A stretch of 34,532 nucleotides of DNA from Chloroflexota bacterium (GTDB taxonomy: Bacteria > Chloroflexota > Ktedonobacteria > Ktedonobacterales > Ktedonobacteraceae): assembly GCA_902810755.1 (NCBI GenBank), contig CADDYT010000063.1:1-34532 (forward strand), read 5' to 3'. Of the stretch, positions 10,730-28,519 are shown in pieces; positions within the stretch are counted from its first letter, which is position 1, and each line of letters begins with the position of its first letter. Position numbers and translations under genes: made by a program. Below the pieces are notes generated by a model that worked only from the letters and a program-made list of their open reading frames with translations, made no database searches and was not told the origin of the DNA.

Positions 10730-11764
10730 TTGCAGCGACGCGAAGTCTCTATTGCCGATATTGCCCAGGTGGCCGGAGTATCACATACGACCGTCTCACG
10801 CGCCCTGCGCGACAGCCCGTTGATCAGCGTGGATACGCGCGAGCGCATCCATCGTCTGGCCGAGGAGATGGGCTATACCCCTAATGCCATTGCGCAGAGC
10901 CTGCAAACCCGGCAGACGTACACGCTGGGCCTTGTTGTAACCTCAATTGCCGACCCGTTTCTCGGTGATGTTGTGAAAGGGGTCGAGGAAGTAGCGCGGG
11001 CTGCCGGTTTCAGTGTTCTGCTCAGCGCCTCTCACAACGATCCCGAACAGGAAATGGCGATCATCGAGACATTCCACCGGCGGCGCGTCGATGGTATTCT
11101 TGTTGCTTCCTCTCGCCTCACCAGTGATTATAAAAAGCGGCTTGACCGTCTCCGCGTTCCTACTGTCCTCATTAATGGTCAGGCCGAGGCGCAGGATGGC
11201 CTGTTGCACTGGGTAGCTGTGGATGATCGCGTGGGAGCGCAGATGGCCGTGCAGCACCTGCTCCAGCTTGGACATCGCGCCATTGGCTACATCGGCGCGA
11301 GCAGCCGTCCGCGCTCGAATCGCCAGCGCCTTGAGGGATATCGCAGCGCCTTAGAGGCGGCATCCATTTCTTTCGATGAAGCCAGGGTTGTTATGGCTCC
11401 AGGTATTGAGGCTTCTGACGAGGAGGATGTAGCTGCCGGAGAGGCATCGCTGCCTGCTTTGCTTGCTTGCGGCGTCACCGCTATCTTTTGCTACAACGAT
11501 ATGATCGCCGTCGGGGTGCAGGTGGCCTGCCGCGAGCGGGGCATTGTCATCCCGCGCGACCTGAGCGTCGTCGGCTTTGACGATATCCGCATGGCCGGTT
11601 ATGTCAACCCGCCGCTGACCACCATTCGCCAGCCAAAAGTGGAACTGGGCAGCCGGGCGGCGCAGCTCCTGCTGGATTTGCTCGATCGTCGTCCGGTACA
11701 AGATCATCTATTATCACCCGTCCTTGTGCATCGTTCCAGTACCGCTCCATTGACAGGCAGCTAA
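10730..11764 (+). CDS. LacI/GalR-family transcriptional regulator, probable repressor of the inositol cluster
   Basis: The product has 344 residues. An N-terminal helix-turn-helix (about 6-30, IADIAQVAGVSHTTVSRAL) and hinge helix (about 50-60, NAIAQSLQT) precede a periplasmic-binding-protein-like effector domain (about 63-335). The start is TTG 10730; AGAGAGG lies just upstream and no in-frame ATG fits the HTH better. His19 and Thr20 occupy the positions that set operator specificity in LacI (Tyr17, Gln18 there). It is the first gene behind two palindromic operators and lies 24 bases ahead of the dehydrogenase gene. Autoregulated repression of the inositol genes, relieved by inositol or an intermediate, is the natural inference. 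In Bacillus the equivalent regulator, IolR, belongs to the DeoR family, so this is an unrelated solution. Confidence 0.9.
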   Translation: MQRREVSIADIAQVAGVSHTTVSRALRDSPLISVDTRERIHRLAEEMGYTPNAIAQSLQTRQTYTLGLVVTSIADPFLGDVVKGVEEVARAAGFSVLLSASHNDPEQEMAIIETFHRRRVDGILVASSRLTSDYKKRLDRLRVPTVLINGQAEAQDGLLHWVAVDDRVGAQMAVQHLLQLGHRAIGYIGASSRPRSNRQRLEGYRSALEAASISFDEARVVMAPGIEASDEEDVAAGEASLPALLACGVTAIFCYNDMIAVGVQVACRERGIVIPRDLSVVGFDDIRMAGYVNPPLTTIRQPKVELGSRAAQLLLDLLDRRPVQDHLLSPVLVHRSSTAPLTGS

Positions 11765-11788
11765 TAGCGGGAAAGGAGTGCTTTGCCT

Positions 11789-12829
11789 ATGCCTGCCCTT
11801 TTGAAAATCGGCGTTATCGGTCTGGGTCGTATGGGCCAGTTGTATGCGCGCCTGCTCGCCACGCAGGTCAGCGGGGCCGCGCTCTATGCCGTCGCGGAAG
11901 TGGATGAGCGAGCGCGCGCAAAGATCGCCGCCGATTACGCTGTTCCCTGTGTATTTCCCGACGTTGAGGAACTGCTCGCCCTGCCTGAACTGGATGGCGT
12001 CATCATTGCTACGCCGACCGGCACTCATCCTGCGCTGGTGGCTGCGGCAGCCGGGGCGGGCAAGGCTATTTTCTGCGAAAAGCCGCTCGCTCTGAGCATC
12101 GAGGAGACGCGGGCCGTGCTGGACGCTGTTGCGCAGGCGGCAGTGCCATTACAGATTGGCTTCATGCGCCGTTTTGACGCCGGGTACCGGCGCGCAAAAG
12201 CGTTGATTGACGCGGGCCAGATCGGGCAACCTGTCATCTTCAAATCTATCGGGCGCGACCCCTTCTGCCCGGACTGCGCCTATGCCGATCCGGCGAAGAG
12301 CGGCGGCTTAATCATCGATATGGCTATTCACGACTTCGACCTGGCGCGCTGGCTGATGGGCAGCGAGGTGGAGCGTGTCAGCGCCGAGGGGACGCTCATG
12401 GTCTGCAACGAACTGGCCTCGGTTGGCGATATTGATAACGCCGTTGTCAATCTGCGTTTCGCGAGCGGCGCCCTGGGCAATGTCGAGGTCAGCCGCAACG
12501 CCTTCTACGGCTACGATATCCGTACCGAAGTGCTTGGCTCGGAGGGCGCGTTGATGATCGGCACGCACCAGCATACCCCCGTACTCCTGCTGACCCGTGC
12601 AGGCGCGCAATACGATGTAATGCCCTATTTGCTGGAACGTTTTGGCGATGCCTATCGTGCCGAGTTGCAGCACTTCGCCGATTGCCTGCGCGCCGGTCAA
12701 CCGCCCTCTGTCGGCGGCGCTGACGCCCTTGCCGCCTGTGAAATCGGCGTCGCTGCCGCCCGTGCCTGTCAGACCGGGCGACCGGTGACACTTGCTGAGA
12801 TCAGGCAGCTATCTGGACGTAGTTTATAA
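11789..12829 (+). CDS. Gfo/Idh/MocA oxidoreductase, inositol dehydrogenase paralogue
   Basis: This NAD(P)-dependent dehydrogenase oxidises an inositol or related polyol to its ketone. ATG 11789 is chosen because AAAGGAG at 11772-11778 is 10 bases upstream; TTG 11783 would be too close. The product has 346 residues. Visible: a Rossmann start GVIGLGRMG, catalytic Lys98 in FCEKP, QIGFMRRFD, and the Asp177/His181 pair in DMAIHDFD, matching the Lys-Asp-His set of IolG. Compared with the second dehydrogenase at 22467, it lacks the SxDPAPPP and LIDPAIGEAGD segments of canonical IolG. It also has an extra Cys-containing loop, FCPDCAYADP. It may handle scyllo-inositol, D-chiro-inositol or another isomer (IolX-like), but this is unproven. 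Confidence 0.85.
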   Translation: MPALLKIGVIGLGRMGQLYARLLATQVSGAALYAVAEVDERARAKIAADYAVPCVFPDVEELLALPELDGVIIATPTGTHPALVAAAAGAGKAIFCEKPLALSIEETRAVLDAVAQAAVPLQIGFMRRFDAGYRRAKALIDAGQIGQPVIFKSIGRDPFCPDCAYADPAKSGGLIIDMAIHDFDLARWLMGSEVERVSAEGTLMVCNELASVGDIDNAVVNLRFASGALGNVEVSRNAFYGYDIRTEVLGSEGALMIGTHQHTPVLLLTRAGAQYDVMPYLLERFGDAYRAELQHFADCLRAGQPPSVGGADALAACEIGVAAARACQTGRPVTLAEIRQLSGRSL

Positions 12830-12857
12830 AGAAGTGGTTGGAACAGGAGGGCAAGTT

Positions 12858-13760
12858 ATGAAACAGTACGATGCACAGAATCTCGTCGTTCATCCCGGCA
12901 ACGCGCCGGAGCAGGATGTGATCGTTGAGGTGACGCCGGAACTGGCGGGCTGGGACTACATCCGTTTCCAGGTGCGCCGCCTCGCGCCAGGGCAAAGCTG
13001 GGCATTCGCGACCGGCGATTACGAACTGGCGCTTGTCCCCTTCAGCGGTCGTCTCAGTGTTACCTCAAATCGCGGGCAGTGGTCGCAGGTAGGCGGGCGT
13101 GAAAGCGTCTTCAGCGGCCTGCCCCACGCGCTCTACCTGCCCCGGCAGACCGCGCTGACCGTCACTACCGAAGCCGGAGCGGAATTTGCCGTCTGTCTGG
13201 CTCCCGCCGAAGTGGACTATCCCGCCCAACTCGTCACGCCCCACGATATCGAGATTGAGATACGCGGCGGCGATCATGCCACGCGACAGATCAACAACAT
13301 CATCCCGCCCGGCTTTTCCTGCCAGCGCCTGGTGGTGGTCGAGGTCTATACCCCCGGCGGCAACTGGTCGAGCTATCCGCCGCACAAGCATGACATTCAT
13401 AAGGTCGATCAGCAGGGCAATATTCGCGAGGGCGATCTGGAAGAAGTCTACTTCTACAGGCTGGACAGGCCGGAGGGCTTCGCCTTCCAGCGCATTTATA
13501 CCGACTCCGAATCGCCCCTGCACCGCGCCGGCTATCCCATTGATGCGGTAGTGCTGGCGGGCCATAACGACGCCGTGCTGGTGCCAGAGGGTTACCATCC
13601 CGTCAGCAGCCCGCCCGGCTACACGACCTATTATCTCAATGTGCTGGCGGGCAGCGCGCAAACGCTGGCCAACAGCGAAGACCCGCGCTATAGCTGGGTC
13701 AAGGAAACCTACCGCGCTCGCGACCCGCGCGTACCGCTCTATGACATAGAACATCGTTGA
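12858..13760 (+). CDS. iolB: 5-deoxy-glucuronate isomerase (IolB)
   Basis: IolB converts 5-deoxy-D-glucuronate, the product of IolD, to 5-dehydro-2-deoxy-D-gluconate. It is a metal-dependent double-cupin enzyme. ATG 12858 has GGAGG 7 bases upstream and avoids overlap with the preceding gene; 300 residues, slightly above the usual 270-290. The second cupin shows YPPHKHDIH (His176, His178, His181), EEVYFYR with Glu195/Glu196, and EGYHPVSSPPGY near residue 250. These are family hallmarks and supply the metal ligands. It lies between the dehydrogenase and kinase genes, with 28 and 36 intergenic bases. Confidence 0.95.
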   Translation: MKQYDAQNLVVHPGNAPEQDVIVEVTPELAGWDYIRFQVRRLAPGQSWAFATGDYELALVPFSGRLSVTSNRGQWSQVGGRESVFSGLPHALYLPRQTALTVTTEAGAEFAVCLAPAEVDYPAQLVTPHDIEIEIRGGDHATRQINNIIPPGFSCQRLVVVEVYTPGGNWSSYPPHKHDIHKVDQQGNIREGDLEEVYFYRLDRPEGFAFQRIYTDSESPLHRAGYPIDAVVLAGHNDAVLVPEGYHPVSSPPGYTTYYLNVLAGSAQTLANSEDPRYSWVKETYRARDPRVPLYDIEHR

Positions 13761-13796
13761 TTGAGGTCACTGGTTGAGCAAGAACAGGAGCCGCGT

Positions 13797-14828
13797 ATGG
13801 ACACAGGAAACAGAACCTACGATGTGCTTGCGATGGGTCGCTCCTCGATTGACCTGTACTCAAACGATATTGGCGCGCCTTTCGAGGAGATTACCAGCTT
13901 CGCGGCCTACGTTGGCGGCTGCCCGACGAACATCAGTGTTGGCGCGCGCCGCCTGGGCCTGCATCCTGCCCTGCTGACGGCAGTCGGCGAGGATCAGGTG
14001 GGCAATTTCATCCTGCATTTCCTGCGTAAAGAGGGCGTGGAGACCCGCTTCATCCCGCGCAAGCCGGGCCATCGTTCCAGCGCCGTCGTCCTCGGCATCG
14101 AGCCGCCGGACCGCTTTCCGCTGACGTACTATCGCGACAACTGCGCCGATATCGAACTGACCATCGATGACGTGCTGGCTGCCCCCATTGCCGATAGCCG
14201 CGCCCTGCTGATTACCGGCACGGGCCTGAGCAGGGAACCGAGCCGCAGCGCCACGCTCTTTGCCGCCGAGATGGCGCGCCAGGCCGGGACGACCGTGCTA
14301 CTGGACATCGACTTTCGTCCCGACCAGTGGTTCGACCCGCGCGCCTTTGGCGTCATCCTGCGTTCGGCCCTGCGACTGGTCGATATCGTCATTGGCACGG
14401 AAGATGAGATCAACGCGGCCATGCTCACCGACCCGGCCCAGGTGCGCCTGACGCATTCGCAGGTCTCGGACGCTCATGTGAGCGGAGATATTGACGCGGC
14501 CATCAGGGCATTGCTTCGTCTGGGGCCGCGCGTACTGGTGCAGAAACGCGGCGCGGCTGGCGCTGCCGTGCATCTCGTGGCCGATGATGGCGCAATAGAG
14601 CAGGTGAACGTTCCCGGCTTCCCGGTTGAGGTGCGCAATATTCTGGGCGCGGGCGATGCTTTCGCCTCTGGCTTTCTCTACGGCTTCGTCAGTGGTTGGG
14701 ACTGGTATCGCGCGGCGCGACTGGGCAACGCCTGCGGGGCCATTCTGGTGACAGAGCATGGCTGCGCCAACTTCATGCCCACCCACGATCAGGTCATGCA
14801 ATTTATTCAAGAACACGGCGGCTTTTAG
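13797..14828 (+). CDS. iolC: 5-dehydro-2-deoxygluconokinase (IolC), PfkB family
   Basis: IolC phosphorylates 5-dehydro-2-deoxy-D-gluconate at C6 with ATP, the step before aldol cleavage. ATG 13797 has AGGAG 6 bases upstream; the product has 343 residues. PfkB features visible are the N-terminal GRSSIDLYSNDIGAPF segment typical of IolC, the GGCPTNISVGARRLGL motif near 42-57, and the ATP/catalytic motif GAGDAFASGF with base Asp287. The protein ends after the kinase fold, so it lacks the DUF2090 aldolase-like fusion found in many proteobacterial IolC proteins. A separate aldolase is therefore needed and is offered by the gene at 23504. Confidence 0.95.
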   Translation: MDTGNRTYDVLAMGRSSIDLYSNDIGAPFEEITSFAAYVGGCPTNISVGARRLGLHPALLTAVGEDQVGNFILHFLRKEGVETRFIPRKPGHRSSAVVLGIEPPDRFPLTYYRDNCADIELTIDDVLAAPIADSRALLITGTGLSREPSRSATLFAAEMARQAGTTVLLDIDFRPDQWFDPRAFGVILRSALRLVDIVIGTEDEINAAMLTDPAQVRLTHSQVSDAHVSGDIDAAIRALLRLGPRVLVQKRGAAGAAVHLVADDGAIEQVNVPGFPVEVRNILGAGDAFASGFLYGFVSGWDWYRAARLGNACGAILVTEHGCANFMPTHDQVMQFIQEHGGF

Positions 14829-14855: not shown

Positions 14856-16775
14856 ATGCAAACGCAATACATGACGATGGCCCAGGCTCTCATCGCCTTT
14901 CTGAAGAATCAGTATGTTGAACGCGATGGGGTTGAGCAGCCGTTTTTTGCCGGGTGCTTCGGCATCTTCGGGCATGGCAACGTGGGCGGCATCGGGCAGG
15001 CGCTGCAACAGATGCCCGATTTTCGCTACTACCAGGCGCGTAACGAGCAGGCGATGGTGCATATTGCCGCCGCCTACGCGAAGGTCAAGAATCGCCTGCA
15101 GACCTTTGCCTGCACTTCCTCGATTGGCCCCGGCGCGACCAACATGGTGACGGGCGCGGCCCTTGCCACCATCAACCGCCTGCCGGTGCTGCTGCTGCCG
15201 GGCGATATCTTCGCGCGTCGCAACGTCGCCCCCGTCTTGCAGCAACTGGAGTTCGAGCATTCGCAGGATATTTCCGTCAATGACGCCTTCAAGCCCGTCA
15301 GCCGCTACTGGGACCGCATCTCGCGGCCCGAACAACTGCTGACGGCTCTGCCGGAGGCCATGCGCGTGCTGACCAGCCCGGCGGAGACCGGGGCCGTCAC
15401 GCTGGCCTTGCCCCAGGACGTACAGGCCGAGGCTTTCGCATACCCCGCCGCTTTCTTCTCCCGCCGCCTCTGGCATATCCCGCGCAACCGTCCTGACCGC
15501 CATGCGCTGGAACAGGCGGCGGCGTTGATTCGCGCCAGCCAGCGCCCGTTGATTATTGCCGGGGGCGGCGTCATCTATGCCGGGGCCACAGAGACGCTGC
15601 GCCAGTTCGTTGACCGCACGGGCATTCCCGTTGGCGAGACGATGGCGGGCAAAGGCAGTCTCTCCTACGACCATCCGCTCAGCCTCGGCGCGATTGGCGC
15701 GACCGGCACCTTTGCCGCCAACCGGCTTGCCAGAGATGCCGACCTTGTCATCGGCATCGGCACGCGCTACAGCGACTTCACTACCTCATCAAAGACGGCT
15801 TTCCAGGCTCCCGACGTGCGCTTCATCAATATCAACGTGGCTGAATTCGATGCCGCCAAACACGCGGCCCTTGCGCTGACCGGCGATGCCAGGGCGACGC
15901 TGGAAGAACTGCTGCCCCTGCTGAACGGTTATCAGGCGGCGGGCGACTACCGTTCGCAGGCCGAACAGCTTCACGCCGCCTGGGATGCCGAGGTTGAGCG
16001 TATCTATGCTATGCGCCACGAGCCGTTGCCCTCGCAGGGCGAACTGATCGGCGCGGTGAACGAATTAAGCTCGCCGGAGGCGATCATGCTCTGCGCGGCT
16101 GGCAGCCTGCCTGGCGACCTGCACAAACTCTGGCGGGCGCGCCACCCGAAAAATTATCACCTCGAATACGGCTATAGCTGCATGGGCTACGAGATTGCCG
16201 GTGGCCTGGGCGCGAAAATGGCCGCGCCTGACCGTGACGTGTATGTGATGGTTGGCGATGGCTCCTATCTGATGATGAATAGCGAGATCGTCACCTCTAT
16301 TCAGGAGGGCTATAAGCTTATCATTGTGCTGCTCGATAATCAGGGTTTCAAGAGCATCGGCAGCTTGAGCCGCTCGCTCGGTCAGGATGGCTTCGGCACG
16401 CGCTATGTCTACCCGCAAAACGGCGTCTTGCCCGATGACACGGCAGGAAAGGATGTGCGAACGCTGCCTGTTGATCTGGCGGCCAACGCGCGCAGCCTGG
16501 GCGCGCACGTCATCGAGTGTAAGACCTATGCTGAGTTTGTGGCCGCGCTCGACGCCGTGCAGGCCGTGGAGCGCACCTCGGTCATCTACATTCAGAATGA
16601 CCGCTATGAGGGCGTTCCATCATACGATAGCTGGTGGGATGTGCCGGTGGCCGCTGTCAGCGATATGCCGCAGGTGCAGGCCGCCCACGCAGCGTGGGCA
16701 GAGATGCGCAAGCAGGAACGCTATTTCCTGGGTCAGGAGCAGCAGGCTGGCATTCCCACCACTACTCAAGCATAA
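14856..16775 (+). CDS. iolD: 3D-(3,5/4)-trihydroxycyclohexane-1,2-dione acylhydrolase (IolD)
   Basis: This thiamine-diphosphate-dependent enzyme opens the inositol ring, hydrolysing 3D-trihydroxycyclohexane-1,2-dione to 5-deoxy-glucuronate. It has 639 residues, the standard IolD length. The start has GGAGGAGAG just upstream. Motifs: catalytic Glu64 in RNEQAMVHIA, which activates the cofactor; FGHGNVGGIGQAL near 34-46; and the ThDP/Mg motif GDGSYLMMN with Asp468 and Asn475. It is 27 bases downstream of iolC and 163 bases upstream of the ABC importer genes. It is the most diagnostic gene of the pathway. Confidence 0.96.
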   Translation: MQTQYMTMAQALIAFLKNQYVERDGVEQPFFAGCFGIFGHGNVGGIGQALQQMPDFRYYQARNEQAMVHIAAAYAKVKNRLQTFACTSSIGPGATNMVTGAALATINRLPVLLLPGDIFARRNVAPVLQQLEFEHSQDISVNDAFKPVSRYWDRISRPEQLLTALPEAMRVLTSPAETGAVTLALPQDVQAEAFAYPAAFFSRRLWHIPRNRPDRHALEQAAALIRASQRPLIIAGGGVIYAGATETLRQFVDRTGIPVGETMAGKGSLSYDHPLSLGAIGATGTFAANRLARDADLVIGIGTRYSDFTTSSKTAFQAPDVRFININVAEFDAAKHAALALTGDARATLEELLPLLNGYQAAGDYRSQAEQLHAAWDAEVERIYAMRHEPLPSQGELIGAVNELSSPEAIMLCAAGSLPGDLHKLWRARHPKNYHLEYGYSCMGYEIAGGLGAKMAAPDRDVYVMVGDGSYLMMNSEIVTSIQEGYKLIIVLLDNQGFKSIGSLSRSLGQDGFGTRYVYPQNGVLPDDTAGKDVRTLPVDLAANARSLGAHVIECKTYAEFVAALDAVQAVERTSVIYIQNDRYEGVPSYDSWWDVPVAAVSDMPQVQAAHAAWAEMRKQERYFLGQEQQAGIPTTTQA

Positions 16776-16938
16776 AGCAATCGTGACTACTTTACAGGAA
16801 AGGAGGTAGTGTATCGCAAAAATCGGGCGACTCTGGTGGAAGATGGCAGGGGGCTTGCTCGCGGGGTAAGCCATTTGTGAATCGTCTTCAGGAAGTATCT
16901 TTGTCCACAATGTGGGTGGACAGGAACAGGAGAACAAC
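16776..16938 (+). other. Spacer between iolD and the importer genes, with an orphan Shine-Dalgarno and a short hairpin
   Basis: AAAGGAGG at 16799-16806 is a perfect Shine-Dalgarno, but it is followed only by a possible 23-codon frame (GTG 16809 to TGA 16880) with a 2-base gap, too close for normal initiation. Further on, TGTCCAC (16902-16908) pairs with GTGGACA (16916-16922), a 7-bp hairpin ending 5 bases before the AGGAG of the next gene. No promoter was recognised. Confidence 0.4.
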
Positions 16939-17931
16939 ATGCGCAGGCTTCTCACGTTCATCCCGATGTTGCTGCTGCTTTTTGCGCTGGTGGCCTGTGG
17001 AAATGGCACGAGCAACACCACGCAGTCGTCGTCATCGTGTCCGGCTTCGCGTTCGAGCCTCAAGTTCTACGTCATCACGCACGGCCAGGCGTCTGACCCG
17101 TTCTGGTCGGTGGTCAAGAAGGGCGTTGACCAGGCCGCCCATGATATGTGCGTCACCGCCATCTACGAGTCGCCTCCGACCTTCGACATGGTAGCGATGT
17201 CGCACCTGATTGATGCTGCCGTCGCGGCCCATCCGTCTGGACTGGTTGTCTCGATCCCTGACCCCAACGCGCTCGGTCCCTCGATTAAGGCTGCGGTCGC
17301 TGCGGGTATCCCGGTGATCTCGATCAACTCCGGGGCCGATGTTGCGAAGAGCCTGGGGGTGCTGGTGCATGTCGGGCAGACCGAATATCAGGCCGGTTTT
17401 GGCGGCGGTCAGAAGATGGCGGCTGCCGGTGTCACCAATGCCCTCTGCGTCAACCAGGAAGTTGGTAATGCCGCCCTGGAGCAGCGTTGCCAGGGCTTTA
17501 CCGACGCCATGAAGCAGGCAGGCGGCAAAGTGAAGGAGATCGGCGTCAACCTGAATAACCCGACGCAGACTCAGCAGACCATCGAGGCGGCTCTCCAGCA
17601 CGATCCCAGCATCAACGGCATCCTGACGCTTGGCCCGACCGGCGCGACACCCGCCCTCAAAGCCCTGCAAGACTTAAACAAGCTTGGTTCGATCAAACTG
17701 GCTACCTTCGACCTGTCGTCTGACGTGTTGAATGCGATCAAAAACGGGCAGATGCTGTTTGCCATCGACCAGCAGCAGTATCTCCAGGGATACCTGCCCA
17801 TCGTTCTGTTGACGCTGTACAAGACCAATCTCAATACCATTGCGAACGACGTTCTGCAAACTGGTCCTGGCTTTGTCACGTCGGCTAACGTGAATCAGGT
17901 GATCCAGTTGACGGCGCAGGGAACCCGCTAG
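16939..17931 (+). CDS. Sugar/inositol ABC importer substrate-binding lipoprotein (RbsB-like)
   Basis: This is the extracytoplasmic binding protein of a CUT2-type ABC importer, presumably for myo-inositol. ATG 16939 is chosen for AGGAG at 16928-16932; it yields 330 residues with a lipoprotein signal (LVAC, Cys20). The rest is a Peripla_BP_4 type-1 fold: [21 protein letters not shown] at the N-terminus, [11 protein letters not shown] near 130, and [18 protein letters not shown] near 217-234. The gene directly precedes the permease and ATPase of the same importer within the inositol operon, which is the basis for the substrate guess. Confidence 0.92.
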
Positions 17932-18009: not shown

Positions 18010-19068
18010 ATGAGTGTAACACAGGGAAGCGCGGGCAATATCGCTCCCGGCGAGCGGATGTTGCGTGTGAATCCGCTGCGCAGATTGCTGGTGCGCCCGG
18101 AGACCGGTTCCGTCGTTGGTTCCATTGCCGTCTGGATTTTCTTCGCCATCGTCGCAGGCAGTAGCGGCTTCGTCAGCGTCAGAGGCACCTCAAGCTATCT
18201 GAGTGTGGCCTCGGAAATCACCATCCAGGCCGTGCCGGTGGCCCTGCTCATGATTGCAGGCGAATTCGACCTCTCGGTTGGCTCAACAGTTGGCGCGACC
18301 GGCATGATTATCGCCATTTTAACCACGCAATCTGGCTGGAACCTGTGGGCGGCTATCCTTGTGGCTCTAATCTTTGCCGTGCTGGTCGGCCTGCTCAACG
18401 GCTATCTCGTCCTGCGCACCGGCCTGCCGTCCTTCATCGTCACGCTCGGCACTGCTTACATCCTGCTCGGCGCGACAACCGGTATTACGTATATTGTTCT
18501 CAATGGATTGACACAGGTGGGCGGCGTCGATCAGGCTCCGGGTTATAAGCTGGCGCATGCCATTTTCGCGACCACCCTCAGCGGCAACCAGTTCCCCATC
18601 GAGATTGTCTGGGCGCTGCTGCTCGTTGCGCTGGCAACGTGGCTGCTGGTGGGGACGCCGTTCGGCAACTGGATCTTCGGCGTGGGCGGCGACCCCAATG
18701 CGGCGCGCAACGTGGGCGTGCCGGTCTGGCGCGTGAAAATGCTGCTCTTCGTGGCAACGGCTGTCTGCTCCTGCCTGCTGGCGATCATCCAGGTTGTCAC
18801 CTTTACCGGCGCCGATGTCCTGCGCGGGCAGAACAACGAGTTCATCGCCATCGTCGCTGCCGTCGTCGGCGGCGTCCTGCTCACCGGCGGCTATGGTTCG
18901 GCCATCGGAGCCATGTTTGGCGCGCTGATTTTCGGCATGGTCGAGCAGGGCATCGTCTTTGCCGGCGTGGATGCTGACTGGTACAAGGCCGTCGTTGGCG
19001 TTATCCTGCTGCTCGCGGTGCTGCTCAACAGTTATGTACGCAAGCTGGCGATGGAGGTGCGGCGATGA
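18010..19068 (+). CDS. ABC importer permease, RbsC/BPD_transp_2 family
   Basis: This is the membrane permease of the CUT2-type sugar importer, 352 residues with about 8-10 hydrophobic segments from residue 35 on. The start ATG 18010 has GGAGG upstream. Family signs include [16 protein letters not shown] near residue 79, [19 protein letters not shown] near 130, and [14 protein letters not shown] near 235 (the cytoplasmic coupling loop). The last four bases overlap the ATPase gene start (ATGA), pointing to coupled translation and one complex. Confidence 0.93.
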
Positions 19069-20018
19069 GTACCGTCAATACCGATACCCTGCCCCTGCTC
19101 GAAGTGCAGAACGTGTCAAAATACTTCGGCAGCGTGATCGCGCTGAAGGACATTTCCATGAAACTGTTCGCGGGCCAGGTGATGTGCCTGCTTGGCGACA
19201 ACGGCGCGGGCAAATCGACGCTGATCAAGATTCTCTCCGGCGTTCACCGTCCCAGCGAGGGCCAGTATCTCATTGAGGGGAAAGAGGTGCATTTCTCCTC
19301 GCCGCGTGATGCGCTGAATGCCGGTATCGCCACCGTCTATCAAGACCTGGCGATGATCCCGCTCATGGGTATCTCGCGCAATTTCTTCCTGGGTTCGGAG
19401 CCGACAAAGGGCTGGGGGCCGTTCCGCCGCTTCGACAAGAAGTTTGCTGACCGGGTGACGCGCGAGGAACTGGCGCGTATCGGCATCCAGATACGCGAGA
19501 CCTCGCAGCCGGTAGGGACGCTCTCCGGTGGTGAGCGCCAGTCTGTCGCCATCGCGCGCGCCGTCTACTTCGGGGCCAAAGTGCTGATCCTCGACGAGCC
19601 GACCGCTGCTCTGGGCGTCAAAGAGGCCGGCATCGTGCTGCGCTACATCGCGCAGGCGCGGGCGCGCGGGCTGGGCGTCATCTTTATTACCCACAACCCG
19701 CACCATGCCTATCCCATCGGCGATCACTTCACGCTGCTCAATCGCGGGCGCAGCATGGGAACCTTCGCCAGATCGGAGATCAGCCGTGAAGAATTGACCT
19801 CGATGATGGCGGGCGGCGAGGAACTGGAGGAACTGGGCCACGAACTGGCCGAGTTTGCGCGCACCGATGAGAAGGCCCGTGCAGCCCTGGCGGCTGCAGC
19901 GCAGCAATTTGAGGCGGAGGCGCAGCAGATGCACGTTGAGCAATTACCGGCGGCCTTCGAGGAGGCACAGCAACGCCTCGACCAGCCGGGTTCGACAGAT
20001 GGAAAGGGGAACACATGA
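19065..20018 (+). CDS. ABC importer ATPase, single nucleotide-binding domain with a long acidic Ala/Glu tail
   Basis: This is the energising subunit of the importer. It has 317 residues with one complete ABC domain: Walker [10 protein letters not shown] with Lys50, signature [10 protein letters not shown] at 153, Walker [11 protein letters not shown] with Asp177/Glu178, and H-loop His210 in ITHN. RbsA-type partners of RbsC permeases usually have two tandem ABC domains in about 500 residues, so this single-domain protein presumably works as a homodimer, as in FrcA-like systems. After about residue 245 comes a roughly 70-residue Ala/Glu/Gln-rich, probably helical tail ([20 protein letters not shown] and on) of unknown role. 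It overlaps both the permease and iolA genes by ATGA. Confidence 0.92.
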
Positions 20019-21493
20019 TTCAGGATGGACAACTTCTCAACTATATTGGCGGTAGCTGGAAACGGTCGCGGGCGAGCGCATATCTCGATGTGCGTAACCC
20101 TGCGACCGCCGAGACAATGGTGCGCGTGCCGCTCAGTCCGGCTGACGAGGTGGACGAAGCGGCGCGGCTGGCGCAGGCCGCTTTTGAAGACTGGCGGCGC
20201 ACCCCGGCGGTGGACCGCGTCCAGTACCTCTTCAAACTCAAGCAACTGCTGGAAGACCATTTCGACGAAATCGCCCGTCTGACGACGCAGGAGTGCGGCA
20301 AGACGCTGAGCGAGGCCGGGGGCGAACTGCGGCGCGGCATCGAAAATGTCGAGGTCGCGCTGGGCATCCCCTCGTTGATGATGGGCTATAACTCCGAGGA
20401 TATCGCGCGTGGCATCGACGAACACATGCTGCGCCAGCCGGTGGGTGTGGTAGCGGCCATCACCCCTTTCAACTTTCCCGGCATGATTCCCCTCTGGTTC
20501 ATGCCCTACGCCCTTGCCTGCGGCAACTGCTTCATCCTCAAACCGTCTGAAAAGGTACCGATGACGATGAGCCGCGTTTTTGACCTGATCGACCAGCTCG
20601 GCCTGCCGCCGGGCGTTGTCAGCCTCGTCAACGGCGGCAAAGAGACGGTTGATGCTCTGCTCGATCACCCGATTGTACGCGCGATCTCCTTTGTCGGCTC
20701 CTCGCCGGTGGCGAAGTACGTTTACAGCCACGCCGCCGCCAATGGCAAGCGGGCGCAGTGCCAGGGGGGCGCGAAAAATCCGGTGGTGATCCTGCCGGAT
20801 GCCGATATGGAGATGACCACGCGCATCGTTGCCGACTCGTCCTTTGGCTGTGCAGGCCAGCGTTGCCTGGCGTCCTCGGTTGCCATCACCGTCGGCGAGG
20901 CGCGCGCTCCTTTCCGCGAGCATATTGCCCATGCGGCAGAGACACGCCGGGTTGGCTATGGGCTTGACCCGCAGGTTGAGATGGGGCCGGTCATCAGCGC
21001 CGAGAGCAAGCAGCGCATCGAGTCGCTGGTCGATAAGGGGGTGAGTGAAGGGGCGAAGGTGCTGGTCGAGGGGCGCGGCGCGAAGATTCCCGGCTACGAA
21101 CGCGGCTACTTCATTCGCCCGACTGTGCTGGAGGAGGTGAATCCGCACGGCGAGATTGCCCGCACCGAAATCTTCGGTCCGGTTCTCAGCCTCATGCACG
21201 CGCAGACCATCGATGAGGCGATTGCTCTGGTGAACGAGGCTTCCTATGGCAACATGGCCTGCCTTTTCACCGGCAGTGGAGCGGCGGCGCGCAAATTCCG
21301 CTACGAGGTGCAGGCGGGTAATATCGGCATCAACGTCGGCGTGGCGGCTCCGATGGCTTTCTTCCCCTTCTCCGGCTGGAAAGATAGCTTCTTCGGCGAT
21401 ATGCATGCCCAGGGACGTGATGCCATCGAGTTCTATACACAGCAAAAAGTAGTCGTTGAGCGTTGGCCCCGCGAGTGGTCGCGCGCGTTTTAG
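20015..21493 (+). CDS. iolA: Methylmalonate/malonate-semialdehyde dehydrogenase, CoA-acylating (IolA/MmsA)
   Basis: The enzyme converts malonate semialdehyde plus CoA and NAD+ to acetyl-CoA, CO2 and NADH, the last step of inositol catabolism. It has 492 residues, as is usual. The catalytic Cys284 lies in [10 protein letters not shown]. The Glu of the ordinary ALDH motif ELGGK is replaced ([15 protein letters not shown]), which is characteristic of CoA-acylating MMSDH enzymes. [23 protein letters not shown] and [12 protein letters not shown] match the family. Start ATG overlaps the ATPase stop; a purine-rich GGAAAGGGGA is upstream. Confidence 0.95.
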
Positions 21494-21516
21494 CTGACAG
21501 GCCGGGAGTGATGACT

Positions 21517-22446
21517 ATGCGTCTTGCGAATGCCCCCTGCTCGTGGGGGGCGCTCGAATTTGAGGATGTGAAGGGTAAAGGCATCCCCTACGGGCAGATG
21601 CTCGACGAACTGCGCGCCACCGGCTACACCGGCACCGAACTGGGTGACTGGGGCTACATGCCCACCGAACCAGCTGCCCTCCACGCGGAACTGGCGCGGC
21701 GCGACCTGGCGATGGTCGGCGCGTTCGTTCCGGTGGCGCTGAAAAACGCGGAGGCCCATGCCGCCGGGGAGGCGCAGGCGCTGAAGGTAGCGCGCCTGCT
21801 GGCTTCCGTTGCTGACTGCGGCCAGAGCGAGACGTCCCCGCTCATCATTCTGGCCGACGATAACGGCGCAGATCCCCTGCGCACCCGTTTTGCCGGGCGT
21901 GTCACTACCGATCTGGGCCTGAACGCCGTCGAATGGGAAACTTTTGCGCGTGGAGCCGAGCGCATTGCCCACGCCGTCCGCTCCGCCACCGGCCTGCCCG
22001 TCGCCTTCCACCATCACTGCGCGGGCTACGTCGAGACGCCGCAGGAGATCACTCGCTTCCTCGACCTGACCGACGCCGATCTGATCGGGCTGGTCTTTGA
22101 TACCGGCCACTACCTCTACGGCTCCGGCAGCAATGATGGTCAAACCGTGCTGGATGGGCTGCGCCGTTTCGGCGATCGTATCTGGCACGTCCATTTCAAA
22201 GATTGCCAGCCTCAAATTGCTGCACAGGCGCGCCAGGAGGGCCGGGACTATTTCACGGCCCTGCGGCACGGCGTCTTCTGTGAACTGGGCAAGGGAGCTG
22301 TTCCCTTCGCAAGTGTCCTTGATAGTTTGCGTGAGCGTGATTATCGCGGCTGGATCACGGTGGAGCAGGATATTTTGCCGGGGATGGGCAGTCCGAGGGA
22401 GAGCGCGGAGCGCAATCGCGCCTATCTGCGTGCGATCGGGCTATAG
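21517..22446 (+). CDS. iolE: Inosose dehydratase (IolE-type), TIM-barrel
   Basis: This enzyme dehydrates 2-keto-myo-inositol (scyllo-inosose) to 3D-(3,5/4)-trihydroxycyclohexane-1,2-dione, the IolD substrate. It belongs to the xylose-isomerase-like TIM-barrel (AP endonuclease 2) family. ATG 21517 is preferred to ATG 21511 because the GGAG at 21505-21508 is then 8 bases away; 309 residues. Visible: NAPCSWGALEFE at the N-terminus, AFHHHCAGYVETPQE (metal-binding His region), GLVFDTGHYLYGSG, HVHFKDC, and GKGAVPFASVL...WITVEQD near the C-terminus, with the expected His/Asp/Glu metal ligands. The hydroxypyruvate-isomerase relatives share the fold, but the operon context strongly favours IolE. Confidence 0.9.
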   Translation: MRLANAPCSWGALEFEDVKGKGIPYGQMLDELRATGYTGTELGDWGYMPTEPAALHAELARRDLAMVGAFVPVALKNAEAHAAGEAQALKVARLLASVADCGQSETSPLIILADDNGADPLRTRFAGRVTTDLGLNAVEWETFARGAERIAHAVRSATGLPVAFHHHCAGYVETPQEITRFLDLTDADLIGLVFDTGHYLYGSGSNDGQTVLDGLRRFGDRIWHVHFKDCQPQIAAQARQEGRDYFTALRHGVFCELGKGAVPFASVLDSLRERDYRGWITVEQDILPGMGSPRESAERNRAYLRAIGL

Positions 22447-22466: not shown

Positions 22467-23507
22467 ATGTCTGCGCGTTCGTTGGAGCTTGGCATTATCG
22501 GGGCCGGGCGTATCGGCCAGTTGCACGCCGAACACTTCAGACGGCGTATTCCATCAGCTGAGGTGGCCATGGTGGCCGATGTGGCCGAAGGGATGGCGAG
22601 AGCCTGCGCCGCGCGCTACAACATCCCCGCCTTCACCCCGGACTATCACGATATCCTGGAGCGACGAGATATCGATGCGGTGGTGATCTGCTCATCGACC
22701 GATACGCATGCGCGCATCATCGAAGAGGCGGCTGCGGCTGGCAAGCACATCTTCTGCGAAAAGCCCATCGCGCTCGATCTCCCATCCATCGACCGCGCGC
22801 TGGCGGCTGTGAGAGAGGCCAGGGTCAAATTGCAGATCGGTTTTAACCGCCGTTTCGATGCCAGCTTTCGCCGTGTGCGCCAGGTTATCGAGCAGGGGGA
22901 GATCGGGCGTCCGCACCTGCTGCACATCACCAGCTACGATCCCGCTCCGCCGCCGCTGGCCTACATTCGCGTCTCCGGCGGCCTCTTCCTCGATATGATG
23001 ATTCACGACTTCGATATGGCCCGTTTCTTAACCGGCAGCGAAGCAGAAGAGGTCTTCGCTCTGGCCGACGCCCTGATCGATCCCGCTATTGGCGAGGCGG
23101 GCGATGTGGATACGGCCATTGTGACGCTGCGTTTTATGAATGGCGTGATCGCCACCATCAGCAATAGCCGCCAGGCCAGCTACGGCTACGATCAGCGCGT
23201 GGAACTGCTGGGGAGCAAGGGGGCCATCGCCATCGATAACAACTATCCCAACACCGCCATCATCAGCGATGCCCGGAGCGTCCGGCGCGATGTGCCGCTG
23301 CACTTTTTCACTGAACGCTATAACGAAAGTTTCGTTGCCGAGATGACCGCCTTTGTCGAGGCTGTGCTACATGACGCGCCCGTTCCCGTCACGGGCTACG
23401 ATGGGCGCGTGCCGGTCGTCATGGCCCTGGCGGCAAAAAAATCTCTGCTGGAACATCGTCCCGTGCGCCTGCATGAAGTCGAGCAGGCAGTAGAGGATAT
23501 GCCATGA
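22467..23507 (+). CDS. iolG: myo-Inositol 2-dehydrogenase (IolG)
   Basis: This is the first enzyme of the pathway: NAD-dependent oxidation of myo-inositol to 2-keto-myo-inositol. It has 346 residues with AAAGGAG upstream. It shows the GIIGAGRIG nucleotide-binding loop, Lys99 in FCEKP, GFNRRFDASFRRVR, TSYDPAPPP, SGGLFLDMMIHDFDMARFL with Asp176/His180, LIDPAIGEAGDVDTA and GYDQRVELLGSKGAI. These segments are the ones shared by well-studied IolG proteins, so this, not the paralogue at 11789, is the canonical copy. Its stop codon overlaps the start of the aldolase gene by four bases. Confidence 0.93.
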   Translation: MSARSLELGIIGAGRIGQLHAEHFRRRIPSAEVAMVADVAEGMARACAARYNIPAFTPDYHDILERRDIDAVVICSSTDTHARIIEEAAAAGKHIFCEKPIALDLPSIDRALAAVREARVKLQIGFNRRFDASFRRVRQVIEQGEIGRPHLLHITSYDPAPPPLAYIRVSGGLFLDMMIHDFDMARFLTGSEAEEVFALADALIDPAIGEAGDVDTAIVTLRFMNGVIATISNSRQASYGYDQRVELLGSKGAIAIDNNYPNTAIISDARSVRRDVPLHFFTERYNESFVAEMTAFVEAVLHDAPVPVTGYDGRVPVVMALAAKKSLLEHRPVRLHEVEQAVEDMP

Positions 23508-24532
23508 AATTCGAGCTTACACGAGGGAAATTTGAACGTCTCAACGCCTGCTCCAACGCGCAGGGCATCATCGCCGCGCTGGCCGTCGATCATCGCGGCA
23601 ACCTGCTCGACGCCATTGCCGCCGCTCGCGGCCCGCATGGCCAGGCAACGGCTGAAGATATGCACGCCTTCAAAGCCGCCGTCACGAGAGTCCTCACGCC
23701 CTACAGTAGCGCCATCCTGCTCGACCCCGAATACGGCCTGACAGCCCTCAACAGCCGCGCTCCTGGCACCGGCGTCATGCTCGCCTATGAAAAATCCGGC
23801 TATGACATCGCCACCCGGGGCCGCCTGCCCGATCTGCTGCCTGAATGGAGCGTGCGCCGCCTGCTTGAGGCCGGGGCGCAGGCCATCAAAATCCTGCTCT
23901 ACTACAATCCGTTCGATGAACAATGGATCAACCGCGTCAAACAGGCGTACATCGAACGCATCGGCGCGGAATGCAGCGCGCTTGACATTCCCTTTTTCCT
24001 TGAGCCATTAGTTTACGACGACGCCCTCGGCGATGAGAGAAGCCTGGCCTTTGCCCGCAAAAAGCCGGAATACGTCGCGCGCGTCATGGAAGAGTTCTCT
24101 CAACCGCGCTATGGCGTAGACATCCTCAAAGTCGAAATGCCCGTCAACCCCGCCTACGTCGCCGGAATCCGCGCCTTTAACAGCGAAGAGGCTGCTTACT
24201 CGCGGCAGGAAGCCATAGCCCATTTCCGCACCGCCGCCGATGCCGCAGGCAAGCCCTTCATCTACCTCAGCGCGGGCAGCGGCAACGAAGTCTTCTGCGA
24301 AATGCTCGAACTGGCAGCCGAGGCAGGCGTCAACTACGCTGGCGTTCTCTGTGGCCGCGCCACCTGGCAGGACGCCATCGCCATCTACGCCACCGGTGGC
24401 ACCCCGGCCCTCGAAAGCTGGCTGGCCGACCGGGGCGCGCAAAACATTGAGGCCATTAACGCCATTTTAGCGCAGAGCGCGTCTCCCTGGTGGAATTTTT
24501 ATGGCGGGAGAGACAATATAGTGGTTATCTGA
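23504..24532 (+). CDS. LacD-like class I aldolase, probable 6-phospho-5-dehydro-2-deoxy-D-gluconate aldolase
   Basis: The 342-residue product belongs to the tagatose-1,6-bisphosphate aldolase (LacD) family of Schiff-base aldolases. Schiff-base Lys209 is in DILKVEMPV and a second lysine, Lys129, in AIKILLYYNPFD; both are displaced by four from the known LacD lysines (125 and 205, from memory). Glu167 in FFLEPLVYD matches the proton-shuttle Glu by the same offset. AVDHRGNL near residue 29 and YLSAGSGNEVF near 250 also fit. It is translationally coupled to iolG and is the last gene of an otherwise complete inositol cluster that lacks the class II aldolase IolJ. It is therefore the best candidate for cleaving the IolC product into DHAP and malonate semialdehyde. 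The family is certain; the substrate is inference. Confidence 0.85.
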   Translation: MKFELTRGKFERLNACSNAQGIIAALAVDHRGNLLDAIAAARGPHGQATAEDMHAFKAAVTRVLTPYSSAILLDPEYGLTALNSRAPGTGVMLAYEKSGYDIATRGRLPDLLPEWSVRRLLEAGAQAIKILLYYNPFDEQWINRVKQAYIERIGAECSALDIPFFLEPLVYDDALGDERSLAFARKKPEYVARVMEEFSQPRYGVDILKVEMPVNPAYVAGIRAFNSEEAAYSRQEAIAHFRTAADAAGKPFIYLSAGSGNEVFCEMLELAAEAGVNYAGVLCGRATWQDAIAIYATGGTPALESWLADRGAQNIEAINAILAQSASPWWNFYGGRDNIVVI

Positions 24533-24758: not shown

Positions 24759-26063
24759 TTACCCCTCAAACGCCTGCAGATACTCTCTCTCTGCCTCCCA
24801 CATCTCGTCAAACAGCGCGCTGATCTCAGCCGGTGAGCAGACAGCCGCCGTCAGAGGGTCGAGCAGGAGGGCGTAGCGGGCGGCTTCTTTGTTTCCTGTG
24901 AGCAGGGCTTCGCACATGAGGGAGTGGATCGACATGTGGCTGCGGTTGAGGGCGGCGAGTTGTTCGGGCAGGGGGCCGAAGTGGCAGGGCTGGATGCCGT
25001 TGCGGTCGACGAGACAGGCCACCTCGACGCATCCGTCGGGCAGGTTGTCGATCAGACCGGTGTTGCGCACGTTGCCGTAGATGACGGCTGGCCGGTTTGT
25101 GGTCATGGCTTCGATGATGTAGGAGCCGTATTCGTGGCTGCGCGTGAAGGGAGTCTCGCGTGTGCCGTCCAGCATGGCGCGGATCGAGGCGTCATTTTGC
25201 TCGCGCCAGGCAGGCCAGTTATTGGCATAGAAGCCGGTCTCGCCCCGGTAGCCCGCCCGGCAATAGCGTTCGATGAGGTCAGGGCGTTTGCGGAAGTAGG
25301 GGACGTATTCGGAAAAGTGGCCGCTGCTCTCCGTGACGAAGGCGCCGAAGTAGCGCATCATCTCGAAGCGGACGGGGTCGCGTTCGTAAATTTCGGGTTT
25401 CTCGGCTTGCTGGCGCAGGCGCGGGTACATGTCCTGTCCGTGATAGCGCAGTTCGGTAAACCAGGTATTGTGGTTGATACCGGCGCAGCGCCACTCCAGT
25501 TCGTCGTAGGGAACATCCAGATAGCTCGCCAGTTGTTTTGAGGTTCCCTGCACGCTGTGGCACAGGCCGACGGTACGCATCGTTGTTCCCTTAAGAGCGG
25601 CCAGCGTGAGCATTGACATGGGATTGGTATAGTTAAGGACCCAGGCTCGCGGGCAGAGTTCCTCCGCGTCGTGCAGGATGTCGAGCCAGGCAGGGCCGGT
25701 ACGCAGAGCCTTGAAGATGCCGCCGGGGCCGATGGTATCGCCAATGCACTGGTTGATGCCGTACTTCATGGGAATATCGAAGTCGTGGCGTACATTGGCC
25801 AGACCGGCTACCTCGATGCTGTTGATGATAAAATCGCTGCCCGCCAGCAGTTCGCGGCGCTCGGTGGAAGCGTACACGCTCCAGCGTTTGCCGCTCAAAG
25901 CGACAAGTCGTTCTGCTATCTGTCGCGCCAGTTCCAGCCGTTCGGCATCGATATCCACCAGCGCAAAACAACCCTCGTCCAGCCCCTCGATCTGCAAGAT
26001 GTCGGTGATGAGCTGGCGCGCAAAAACGGTGCTACCGGCACCCAGAAGAGTAATATATGGCAT
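24759..26063 (-). CDS. Glycoside hydrolase family 4, alpha-galactosidase (MelA)-like
   Basis: GH4 enzymes hydrolyse glycosides by an NAD+- and metal-dependent redox elimination mechanism in the cytoplasm. The 434-residue product has the Rossmann start LLGAGSTVFARQL, the NYTNPMSM motif near 142-149, Cys168 in CHSVQGT and His198 in GINHNTWF (the metal-binding Cys/His pair of the family). The segment TIGPGGIFKALRTGP near 110-124 is typical of the alpha-galactosidase/glucosidase branch rather than the 6-phospho-glycosidases. The gene lies 5 bases after the LacI-type regulator on the same strand, with an AAGGAG inside that gene's end. It is presumably induced with the ABC importer transcribed divergently from 27501. 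Alpha-galactoside specificity is probable but unproven. Confidence 0.9.
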   Translation of the reverse strand: MPYITLLGAGSTVFARQLITDILQIEGLDEGCFALVDIDAERLELARQIAERLVALSGKRWSVYASTERRELLAGSDFIINSIEVAGLANVRHDFDIPMKYGINQCIGDTIGPGGIFKALRTGPAWLDILHDAEELCPRAWVLNYTNPMSMLTLAALKGTTMRTVGLCHSVQGTSKQLASYLDVPYDELEWRCAGINHNTWFTELRYHGQDMYPRLRQQAEKPEIYERDPVRFEMMRYFGAFVTESSGHFSEYVPYFRKRPDLIERYCRAGYRGETGFYANNWPAWREQNDASIRAMLDGTRETPFTRSHEYGSYIIEAMTTNRPAVIYGNVRNTGLIDNLPDGCVEVACLVDRNGIQPCHFGPLPEQLAALNRSHMSIHSLMCEALLTGNKEAARYALLLDPLTAAVCSPAEISALFDEMWEAEREYLQAFEG

Positions 26064-26068
26064 TGGTA

Positions 26069-27100
26069 CTATAACTCCTTAACAGGTGCTGTCGATTGGC
26101 GAATAATAAGCTGCGTTGGCAGGACCAACGGCGATACCTCTTCAGTTTCTTCTATGAGCGCGACGAGTCGCTTCACTGCCCCACGTCCCATCGCAACGCG
26201 ATCCTGCCGCACAGTGGTGAGCTGCGGGACGGTATACTGGCAGAAATCGATATCATCAAAGCCTATCAGAGAGACATCTTCTGGGACGCGCAGCCCTTGC
26301 TCGGCGAGGGCGCGCAGGATGCCGATGGCCATGAAATCGCTGCCGGCCACGATAGCGGTAAAGTCACGACGTTCGGCCAGCAGTGTTCGGGCGGACTCGT
26401 AGGCTTCATCGACATTCCAGCCTGATTGTCGTACCAGACCGGTATCCGGGGTAATCCCCGCCAGCGCCAGCGCCTGCTGGTACCCAAGCAAGCGTTCCAG
26501 ACCGGCCAGGTCGGTGGTTAGCCCGGTCAGCAGAGCAATACGCCGGTGTCCAAGCGCGAGCAGGTGTCCGGTGGCCTGCCGCGTGCCGTCGATATTATCC
26601 GATTTGACATACGTGGCATGGCTGCCCTGGCTCACCCTGTCAATGAACACAACAGGAAGATTTGCATGAATGAGCGCCTGTGTTCGTGCCTCCGTTGCGT
26701 GGAGTATAATGACTCCGGCTACGCGCCGTGTTTGCAAACTGCGTATGTAATTTTCTGGAGACTTGCCGAGAGGGTGGGAAGGCAGGAGTAGATCATAGCC
26801 TGCCGCGATTGCCTCTCGCTCGATGTTTTCCAGCACGCCCAGATAGAAGTAACGCGACGTTTGACCGAGGTGCGAAAGGGGCAGTTCCTCTCCTTCAGGA
26901 AAGAGCGAGACGGCAATTACCCGTGAGCGTTGGCGCACCAGGCTCTGCGCAACCACGTCCGGTTCATATCCGAGCCTGGCGATGGCGGCCAGGACCCGTT
27001 CTTTTGCCTCATCGCTCACACGCGCCGATCCATTGAGCACACGTGAAACGGTTGCTCGCGAAACCCCTGCTAAGCGGGCAACCTCTTCACTTGTGGCCAT
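26069..27100 (-). CDS. LacI/GalR-family transcriptional regulator of the alpha-galactoside locus
   Basis: The product has 343 residues. The ATG at 27100 is chosen over the upstream in-frame start at 27130 because a perfect GGGAGG lies 6 bases before it and the HTH then begins at once (MATSEEVARLAGVSRATVSRVL). The hinge (VVAQSLVRQRS) and the sugar-binding effector domain (about 60-335) follow. Arg15 and Ala16 occupy the LacI specificity positions, unlike His/Thr in the inositol regulator. It sits between its own promoter/operator and the GH4 gene and faces an ABC importer operon with matching operator sites. It most likely represses both directions until its sugar is present. Confidence 0.92.
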   Translation of the reverse strand: MATSEEVARLAGVSRATVSRVLNGSARVSDEAKERVLAAIARLGYEPDVVAQSLVRQRSRVIAVSLFPEGEELPLSHLGQTSRYFYLGVLENIEREAIAAGYDLLLPSHPLGKSPENYIRSLQTRRVAGVIILHATEARTQALIHANLPVVFIDRVSQGSHATYVKSDNIDGTRQATGHLLALGHRRIALLTGLTTDLAGLERLLGYQQALALAGITPDTGLVRQSGWNVDEAYESARTLLAERRDFTAIVAGSDFMAIGILRALAEQGLRVPEDVSLIGFDDIDFCQYTVPQLTTVRQDRVAMGRGAVKRLVALIEETEEVSPLVLPTQLIIRQSTAPVKEL

Positions 27101-27120
27101 GTAAAACCTCCCTGCGATAG

Positions 27121-27138
27121 ATGTATACACGTGTTCAT
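27121..27138. promoter_or_regulatory. LacI-type operator 1 of the divergent region
   Basis: The site contains ACACGTGT (27127-27134) with a right half GTGTTCAT identical to site 3. The left half matches at 6 of 8 positions. It lies just downstream of the predicted minus-strand transcription start, ahead of the regulator gene. Confidence 0.65.
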
Positions 27139-27149
27139 CTTTATACCGT

Positions 27150-27178
27150 AGTATGTCTTAGAAATGACCCTTTGTCAA
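27150..27178 (-). promoter_or_regulatory. Promoter of the LacI-GH4 operon
   Basis: On the minus strand, TTGACA (27178-27173) is followed by 17 bases and CATACT (27155-27150). Transcription would start near 27143, just before operator 1. Confidence 0.6.
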
Positions 27179-27251
27179 GAGAAAACCGGGTGTTCTACCG
27201 GGCATTTATCGCAGAAAAGGCGTTTTCTTTCGACATTCCGTTCCCTCCAGA

Positions 27252-27267
27252 ATGTACACGCGTTCCA
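27252..27267. promoter_or_regulatory. LacI-type operator 2 (auxiliary, degenerate)
   Basis: ATGTACACGCGTTCCA matches site 3 at 14 of 16 positions. It lies midway between the two promoters, 129 and 140 bases from the outer sites, a spacing suited to DNA looping. Confidence 0.5.
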
Positions 27268-27351
27268 ACCGGTGAGCGATAACAGATACCCTTCATGCCT
27301 GTTCTTCTATAAATCACGCTTGATTGAACGAAATTTTCCTCGCTTTACCAC

Positions 27352-27380
27352 TTGACAACGATCAAAATGGCTGGTAATAT
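27352..27380 (+). promoter_or_regulatory. Promoter of the ABC importer operon
   Basis: TTGACA (27352-27357), a 17-base spacer and TAATAT (27375-27380) are close to the sigma70 consensus. Operator 3 starts 11 bases after the -10 box. Confidence 0.78.
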
Positions 27381-27391
27381 TGCTTTATGAA

Positions 27392-27407
27392 ATGTACACG
27401 TGTTCAT
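27392..27407. promoter_or_regulatory. LacI-type operator 3 (ATGTACACGTGTTCAT)
   Basis: This near-perfect 16-bp palindrome, with one mismatched pair, overlies the expected start region of the importer transcript. It is the best of the three sites. Confidence 0.72.
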
Positions 27408-28469: not shown

Positions 28470-28519
28470 CTCTCTGGCTCATTTCTGCGAGCCTTCTTCC
28501 AGGAAGGAGGGAATCCGTT

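Follow-up and report, generated by a model that had tools for sequence, protein, structure and literature searches.

A LacD-family class I aldolase linked to inositol catabolism genes in Chloroflexota, a probable stand-alone aldolase for 2-deoxy-5-keto-D-gluconate-6-phosphate

In many inositol users the pathway has a gap at the aldolase for 2-deoxy-5-keto-D-gluconate-6-phosphate (DKGP), EC 4.1.2.29. In the study of Price et al. (2022), 18 of 26 inositol users carried either a fusion of IolC with a DUF2090 domain (16 bacteria) or IolJ (two bacteria), and IolJ of Bacillus subtilis together with a similar protein of Phaeobacter were, to those authors' knowledge, the only characterised DKGP aldolases (PMC9007349). 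The DUF2090 domain fused to IolC was reported there to play an important part in the use of myo-inositol by nine bacteria, to be related to LacD and to retain the catalytic Lys126 and Glu164, and the fusion was proposed as a LacD-related class I DKGP aldolase (PMC9007349). A survey of inositol clusters from the same year does not count IolJ among the core genes; the term 'DUF2090' is absent from its main text, which mentions Chloroflexi a single time, in connection with the gene order BCDE (PMC9430895). Our own literature search for a stand-alone LacD-type DKGP aldolase, with most subscription papers outside its coverage, returned only the DUF2090 proposal. The idea of a LacD-related DKGP aldolase is not new, and the type described here is a second, stand-alone lineage.

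The window, by which we mean the whole stretch of 34,532 nucleotides that was analysed, harbors an inositol cluster in the order LacI, IolG, IolB, IolC, IolD, substrate-binding protein, permease, ATPase, IolA, IolE, IolG, LacD, with all genes on the forward strand. It begins with a LacI-family regulator (10730..11764, by Pfam), followed by iolG1 for an inositol 2-dehydrogenase (11783..12829; TIGR04380, 370.5 bits, cut-off 355), iolB for 5-deoxy-glucuronate isomerase (12792..13760; TIGR04378, 339 bits, cut-off 205), iolC for the kinase (13761..14828; TIGR04382, 398.5 bits, cut-off 300) and iolD (14856..16775; TIGR04377, 918 bits, cut-off 715). Next come genes for a substrate-binding protein closest to the rhizopine type (16912..17931; NF052284, 339 bits, below the cut-off of 420), an ABC sugar permease (18010..19068; matches below NCBIfam cut-offs), for which the gene context suggests inositol as substrate, and an ABC transporter ATPase (19065..20018, by Pfam). 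The last part encodes the (methyl)malonate-semialdehyde dehydrogenase IolA (20015..21493; TIGR01722, 569 bits, cut-off 448.5), the inosose dehydratase IolE (21463..22446; best family match TIGR04379), a second inositol 2-dehydrogenase, IolG2 (22467..23507; TIGR04380, 465 bits, cut-off 355), and the aldolase. The true starts of iolB and iolE probably lie downstream of 12792 and 21463, respectively. A sequence-only reading of this DNA had recognized IolG, IolE, IolD, IolB, IolC and IolA, and all of them were identified, IolG (twice), IolB, IolC, IolD and IolA above their curated NCBIfam cut-offs but IolE only below its own (180 against 290 bits). The window thereby contains an iolBCDE cluster, defined as at least three of iolB, iolC, iolD and iolE together (PMC9430895). 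The same reading had stated that IolC lacks the DUF2090 fusion and that the cluster has no class II IolJ, and both statements hold, since PfkB is the sole Pfam match of IolC and a scan of 10 cluster proteins gave no match to PF01116. Further along, facing the iol operon, the region 24759-30902 encodes a family 4 glycosidase (GH4), a LacI regulator, a sugar-binding protein and two presumed permeases.

The aldolase gene (23504..24532, forward strand) encodes a full-length LacD family protein of 342 amino acids with the putative catalytic residues K129, E167 and K209. Its scores of 149 bits against the DeoC/LacD family PF01791 (cut-off 23.8) and 443 bits against NF009498 'tagatose 1,6-diphosphate aldolase' (cut-off 184) agree with the earlier assignment to the LacD-type class I (Schiff-base) aldolases, as does a search of the PDB, where LacD structures rank highest (3myo, 325 bits) and the 'DUF2090 domain-containing protein' 8tnf is more distant (132 bits). 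The protein stays below the strict lacD equivalog TIGR01232 (326.5 bits against a cut-off of 432.2) and matches neither PF01116, the class II family of IolJ, nor PF22649, the family of Cgl0159. Its nearest named database matches come from Ktedonobacteraceae MAGs, which makes an origin of the window in this group of Chloroflexota probable. Linkage to the lacABC genes of the tagatose-6-phosphate pathway was not found, the neighbors being iol genes; at the two contrast loci, L214 and L215, lacA, lacB and a kinase precede lacD. The start of the gene overlaps the stop of iolG2 in ATGA (23504..23507, forward strand), as had been noted before, and this overlap suggests translational coupling.

To see how this arrangement is distributed, we refer to a sample of 400 genomes from the phylum of the Chloroflexales MAG G001, with genomes labeled G and loci labeled L. 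At an E-value of at most 1e-40, 71 of the 400 encode a relative of the aldolase, and at one of at most 1e-100, 102 encode IolD; from 79 of the latter we fetched 80 IolD neighborhoods, many of them interrupted by contig ends. At least three of iolB, C, D and E are present in 47 of the 80, and a window-type LacD relative in 13, of which 12 have at least three of these genes. A fourteenth genome, G165, carries iolE-iolG-lacD on a short contig (L002). In the 13 genomes where iolG is readable, lacD comes next on the same strand, 10-116 bp away (from the stop to candidate starts); L079, where lacD comes after iolA, yielded no iolG. The check on aldolase types in Chloroflexota that the sequence-only reading had proposed thus places the LacD type in the iol cluster of 14 genomes, all within a single clade (see below). 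The clearest negative case is G335 (L076), with a cluster closely resembling that of the window but lacking lacD. A scan of genome contigs with the window protein gave a single relative, L001 (in G001), which is not in any iol cluster.

Other iol clusters of the sample present a varied picture. Among the 47 clusters, seven contain a member of the Cgl0159 family, two a distant LacD-like protein and 26 no candidate, and the class II and DUF2090 queries gave no match in any of the 47, a count in which distant members may be missed because the queries were single sequences. The 26 clusters without any queried kind of DKGP aldolase include, for example, L076, L090 and L093, and no DKGP aldolase is annotated near the iol cluster of Deinococcus psychrotolerans (L216) either. 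The Cgl0159 family (PF22649, PDB 3fok) was seen at L087:6692-7627 and L089:11652-12629 and, by similarity, at L109, L123, L125, L126 and L139; it looks like a class I aldolase and may be another candidate DKGP aldolase. Nine further loci (L128-L130 and L132-L137) encode IolD-like proteins about 62-63% identical to IolD, with iolB, iolC and iolE unmatched in the fetched stretch, and probably represent a different use of the IolD family, although two of their contigs are short.

In an unrooted maximum-likelihood tree of 89 rows, with L122 left out and the bootstrap still slightly short of convergence, all 15 iol-linked LacDs, that of the window included, form one set (97/100) with eight proteins added from the 120 nearest database proteins. 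Outside it are 64 ungrouped rows and the two Carnobacterium LacDs, and the sole iol-linked row among the 64 is the distant L100 (35% identical). At 63 rechecked lacD loci without iol linkage, iolB, iolD and iolE have no match within the fetched stretch (which for five loci reaches just 1.5 kb per side), and merely weak dehydrogenase and kinase resemblances were seen. Where G322, G329, G341, G347, G359 and G365 encode a second LacD, it lies outside the iol set. Among the LacDs without iol linkage, L207 is flanked by two phosphofructokinases, and L171 and L167 have as neighbors a 1-PFK/LacC-type hexose kinase and a gene resembling SIS-type isomerases (below cut-offs), neighborhoods that fit bisphosphate enzymes; a scan of the neighbors of L178 gave no hint of function. 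Three of 59 such rows (L001:9995-11014, L176 and L179, second copies in G001, G199 and G095) have Met in the place of the Schiff-base lysine, and these paralogues may thus form a lineage that lacks catalytic activity or has a regulatory role. The iol-linked LacDs of L073 (G365) and L074 (G359) share a 42-residue insertion after window residue 80, which the close relative L007 does not have.

The alignment bears out the catalytic Lys129, Glu167 and Lys209 named in the earlier reading, since these residues, together with S256, G284 and R285, are conserved in 15 of 15 iol-linked rows, and the three are also kept in the window protein and the 120 best relatives listed for it. K129 and E167 correspond to the catalytic Lys126 and Glu164 of LacD, and K209 is the counterpart of its Schiff-base lysine, Lys205. 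What sets the iol clade apart from other LacDs is the loop after the first strand, where DQRGSLKK has become DHRxNL (DHRGNLLD at residues 29-36 of the window protein). Position 30 is His in all 14 readable iol rows versus Gln in all 58 readable other Chloroflexota LacDs and in both Carnobacterium LacDs of lac operons, which are lacABC-linked. The same rows have Asn (14 of 14) versus Ser (58 of 58) at position 33, Leu or Ala (14 of 14) versus Lys (46 of 58) at position 35, and Gln (11 of 14) versus Lys (52 of 58) at position 36. His30 and Asn33 are found in 121 of 121 sequences when the window protein is taken with its 120 best listed relatives, in which position 36 is usually Glu, Gln or Asp. 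Beyond the clade, His stands at the equivalent of position 30 in three of three IolC-DUF2090 fusions and in the iol-linked L100 and L122, while the equivalent place reads DH in two iol-linked Cgl0159 proteins and DQ in two class I fructose-1,6-bisphosphate (FBP) aldolases. Four distant LacD-like proteins, L187-L190, likewise have His30 with no iol linkage seen; we have for this reason rejected His30 as specific to DKGP enzymes and retained it as a correlate. Two stand-alone DUF2090 proteins with His at this place also speak against a simple rule.

Taken with the operon and the clade, these residues make it probable that the window gene encodes a dedicated DKGP aldolase of the LacD family that acts in the place of IolJ. 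In the predicted reaction, K209 would condense with the C5 ketone of the IolC product to form a Schiff base, the phosphate on the dihydroxyacetone phosphate (DHAP) side would be seated in the conserved site of S256-G258 and G284-R285, and cleavage of the C3-C4 bond, aided by E167 and K129, would yield DHAP and malonate semialdehyde, the latter being presumably converted to acetyl-CoA by IolA from the same operon. The other end of the substrate is where the iol clade may have been remodeled. Going by class I aldolase structures, we place residues 30-36 at the distal end of the substrate and take this loop to be the meeting place of the far-end phosphate and the C4 hydroxyl of a bisphosphate. 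The lysines lost from it would be expected to hold that distal phosphate, and their loss fits DKGP because its far end is a carboxylate, not a phosphate. The clade would thus function like IolJ and the DUF2090 domain, yet it belongs to neither. If this is true, a stand-alone LacD lineage fills the DKGP aldolase gap for part of the Chloroflexota, the automatic name 'tagatose 1,6-diphosphate aldolase' is misleading for its members and can be corrected, and genomes with both an iol-linked and another LacD offer matched paralogues for studying substrate change in class I aldolases.

The class I FBP aldolase NF006704 was found in all 14 iol-lacD genomes with at least 503 bits (cut-off 277), which led us to reject LacD as their sole FBP aldolase; it was not found in G335, G353 and G001, none of which is among the 14. 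PF00274 had no match in 20 genomes, with the control equally silent, and PF01950 had none in 20 genomes, with the control matched in 3 of 14. PF01116, the IolJ family, is without a match in 11 of the 14 genomes; the remaining three are G322, where a class II aldolase is encoded 1 Mb away from the iol genes, and two genomes whose weak matches fall on contigs other than that of the cluster, G347 and G359. For the G322 protein, the closest models are those of class II fructose/tagatose aldolases, although it stays under the cut-off of most, and the class II models do not separate IolJ from the rest, because the class II aldolase of a Ruegeria iol cluster scores alike. A search of 80 iolD genomes for PF01116 gave matches in 33, none near iolD by coordinates, and only in G322 and G326 (more than 200 kb away) does the match share a contig with iolD at all. 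DUF2090 exceeds its cut-off in seven of the 80, including five of the 14 iol-lacD genomes (G329, G341, G347, G359 and G365), where the genes are stand-alone and either separated from iolD by 250 kb or more or located on different contigs. In eight of the 14 iol-lacD assemblies, which come without completeness values, neither PF01116 nor DUF2090 reaches the cut-off. In the six others (G322, G329, G341, G347, G359 and G365), the aldolases of other families mean that another enzyme could cleave DKGP.

A first alternative is that the enzyme is a generalist LacD under iol control that cleaves DKGP as well as bisphosphates, which we consider somewhat unlikely in itself but which overlaps with a DKGP aldolase as proposed, so that the two are not exclusive. 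LacD reportedly discriminates poorly between stereoisomers (LowKam et al. are said to have described this in 2010), and the retention of all catalytic residues and of S256, G284 and R285 would be in line with such breadth. Nevertheless, the conserved loop residues have changed together in the iol clade, as specialization predicts, and each of the 14 genomes already has a separate FBP aldolase, although both observations are compatible with a side activity on bisphosphates.

It could also be that an ordinary tagatose/fructose-1,6-bisphosphate aldolase is found by chance at the end of the iol operon, serving the GH4/sugar ABC cluster at 24759-30902 or glycolysis, with DKGP cleaved elsewhere. The best named family of the protein is indeed tagatose 1,6-diphosphate aldolase, a GH4 gene, a LacI regulator and a sugar-binding protein are immediately downstream, and the LacDs of L207, L167 and L171 do adjoin sugar phosphate genes as described above. 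However, the GH4 gene, the two permeases and the binding protein recur at none of the 13 other iol-lacD loci tested (within the fetched stretches and with L002 left out), on account of which we rejected the aldolase gene as part of the downstream cluster. No lacA, lacB or lacC family was detected among the window proteins scanned, NF006704 already provides an FBP aldolase in every one of the 14 genomes, and in the iol clade Gln30 and Ser33, conserved in the other LacDs, have been lost along with the usual Lys35 and Lys36, all of which makes a chance placement quite improbable. A non-catalytic paralogue with a regulatory role, of the type of LacD.1 of Streptococcus pyogenes, is hardly credible, since L001, L176 and L179 show that loss of the Schiff-base lysine occurs in the family but K129, E167 and K209 are retained in all 15 iol-linked rows and in the 120 relatives listed for the window protein.

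A dedicated DKGP aldolase of the LacD family thus remains the preferred reading, which raises the question of its history. The sequence-only reading had a LacD-type enzyme replacing IolJ, and the part of this that concerns a dedicated LacD-type enzyme is supported by the 14 genomes and the clade; replacement, on the other hand, is only one possible history, and there is no evidence that IolJ was ever present, because no IolJ-type gene was found in the 80 iolD neighborhoods. More tentatively, and with some doubt on our part, class I TIM-barrel aldolases may have taken up DKGP cleavage several times, as IolC-DUF2090, the iol-linked LacDs, L100/L122 and Cgl0159, with His after the first-strand Asp where the bisphosphate-linked enzymes (LacD of lac operons, NF006704) have Gln, a pattern in which Cgl0159 and FBP aldolase are represented by just two sequences each and L187-L190 have the His without iol linkage. 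Were this so, the switch from Asp-Gln to Asp-His and the altered loop would be a readable sign of a carboxylate-ended as against a phosphate-ended substrate, by which the naming of many proteins as 'tagatose 1,6-diphosphate aldolase' could be corrected.

Compared with the known systems, the window aldolase has the same predicted reaction and pathway position as the class II IolJ of Bacillus subtilis and Phaeobacter (PF01116). IolJ belongs to a metal-dependent family unrelated to LacD, whereas the window aldolase has no PF01116 domain, and none was found near iolD in the Chloroflexota examined. Closer to it is the IolC-DUF2090 fusion (PF09863; NF047869), a related class I aldolase that shares the catalytic Lys and Glu and has a role at the same pathway step; the window aldolase is, in contrast, a separate, unfused gene product and scores only 15 bits against PF09863, under the cut-off of 27, versus 149 bits against PF01791. 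Cgl0159 (PF22649), deposited as 'uncharacterized protein Cgl0159' (PDB 3fok) and present in 7 of the 47 other Chloroflexota iol clusters, has DH after the first strand as the window aldolase does and, by eye, a similar K/E/K pattern, but belongs to a different Pfam family. LacD itself (NF009498, TIGR01232; PDB 3myo, 5f2l and others) is of the same family over its full length and has the catalytic K, E, K and the GR site in common, with the LacDs of the two Carnobacterium lac operons being 48-49% identical to the window aldolase. The latter differs from LacD in falling under the TIGR01232 cut-off, in carrying DHRxNL rather than DQRGSLKK, and in being linked to iol genes rather than to lacABC.
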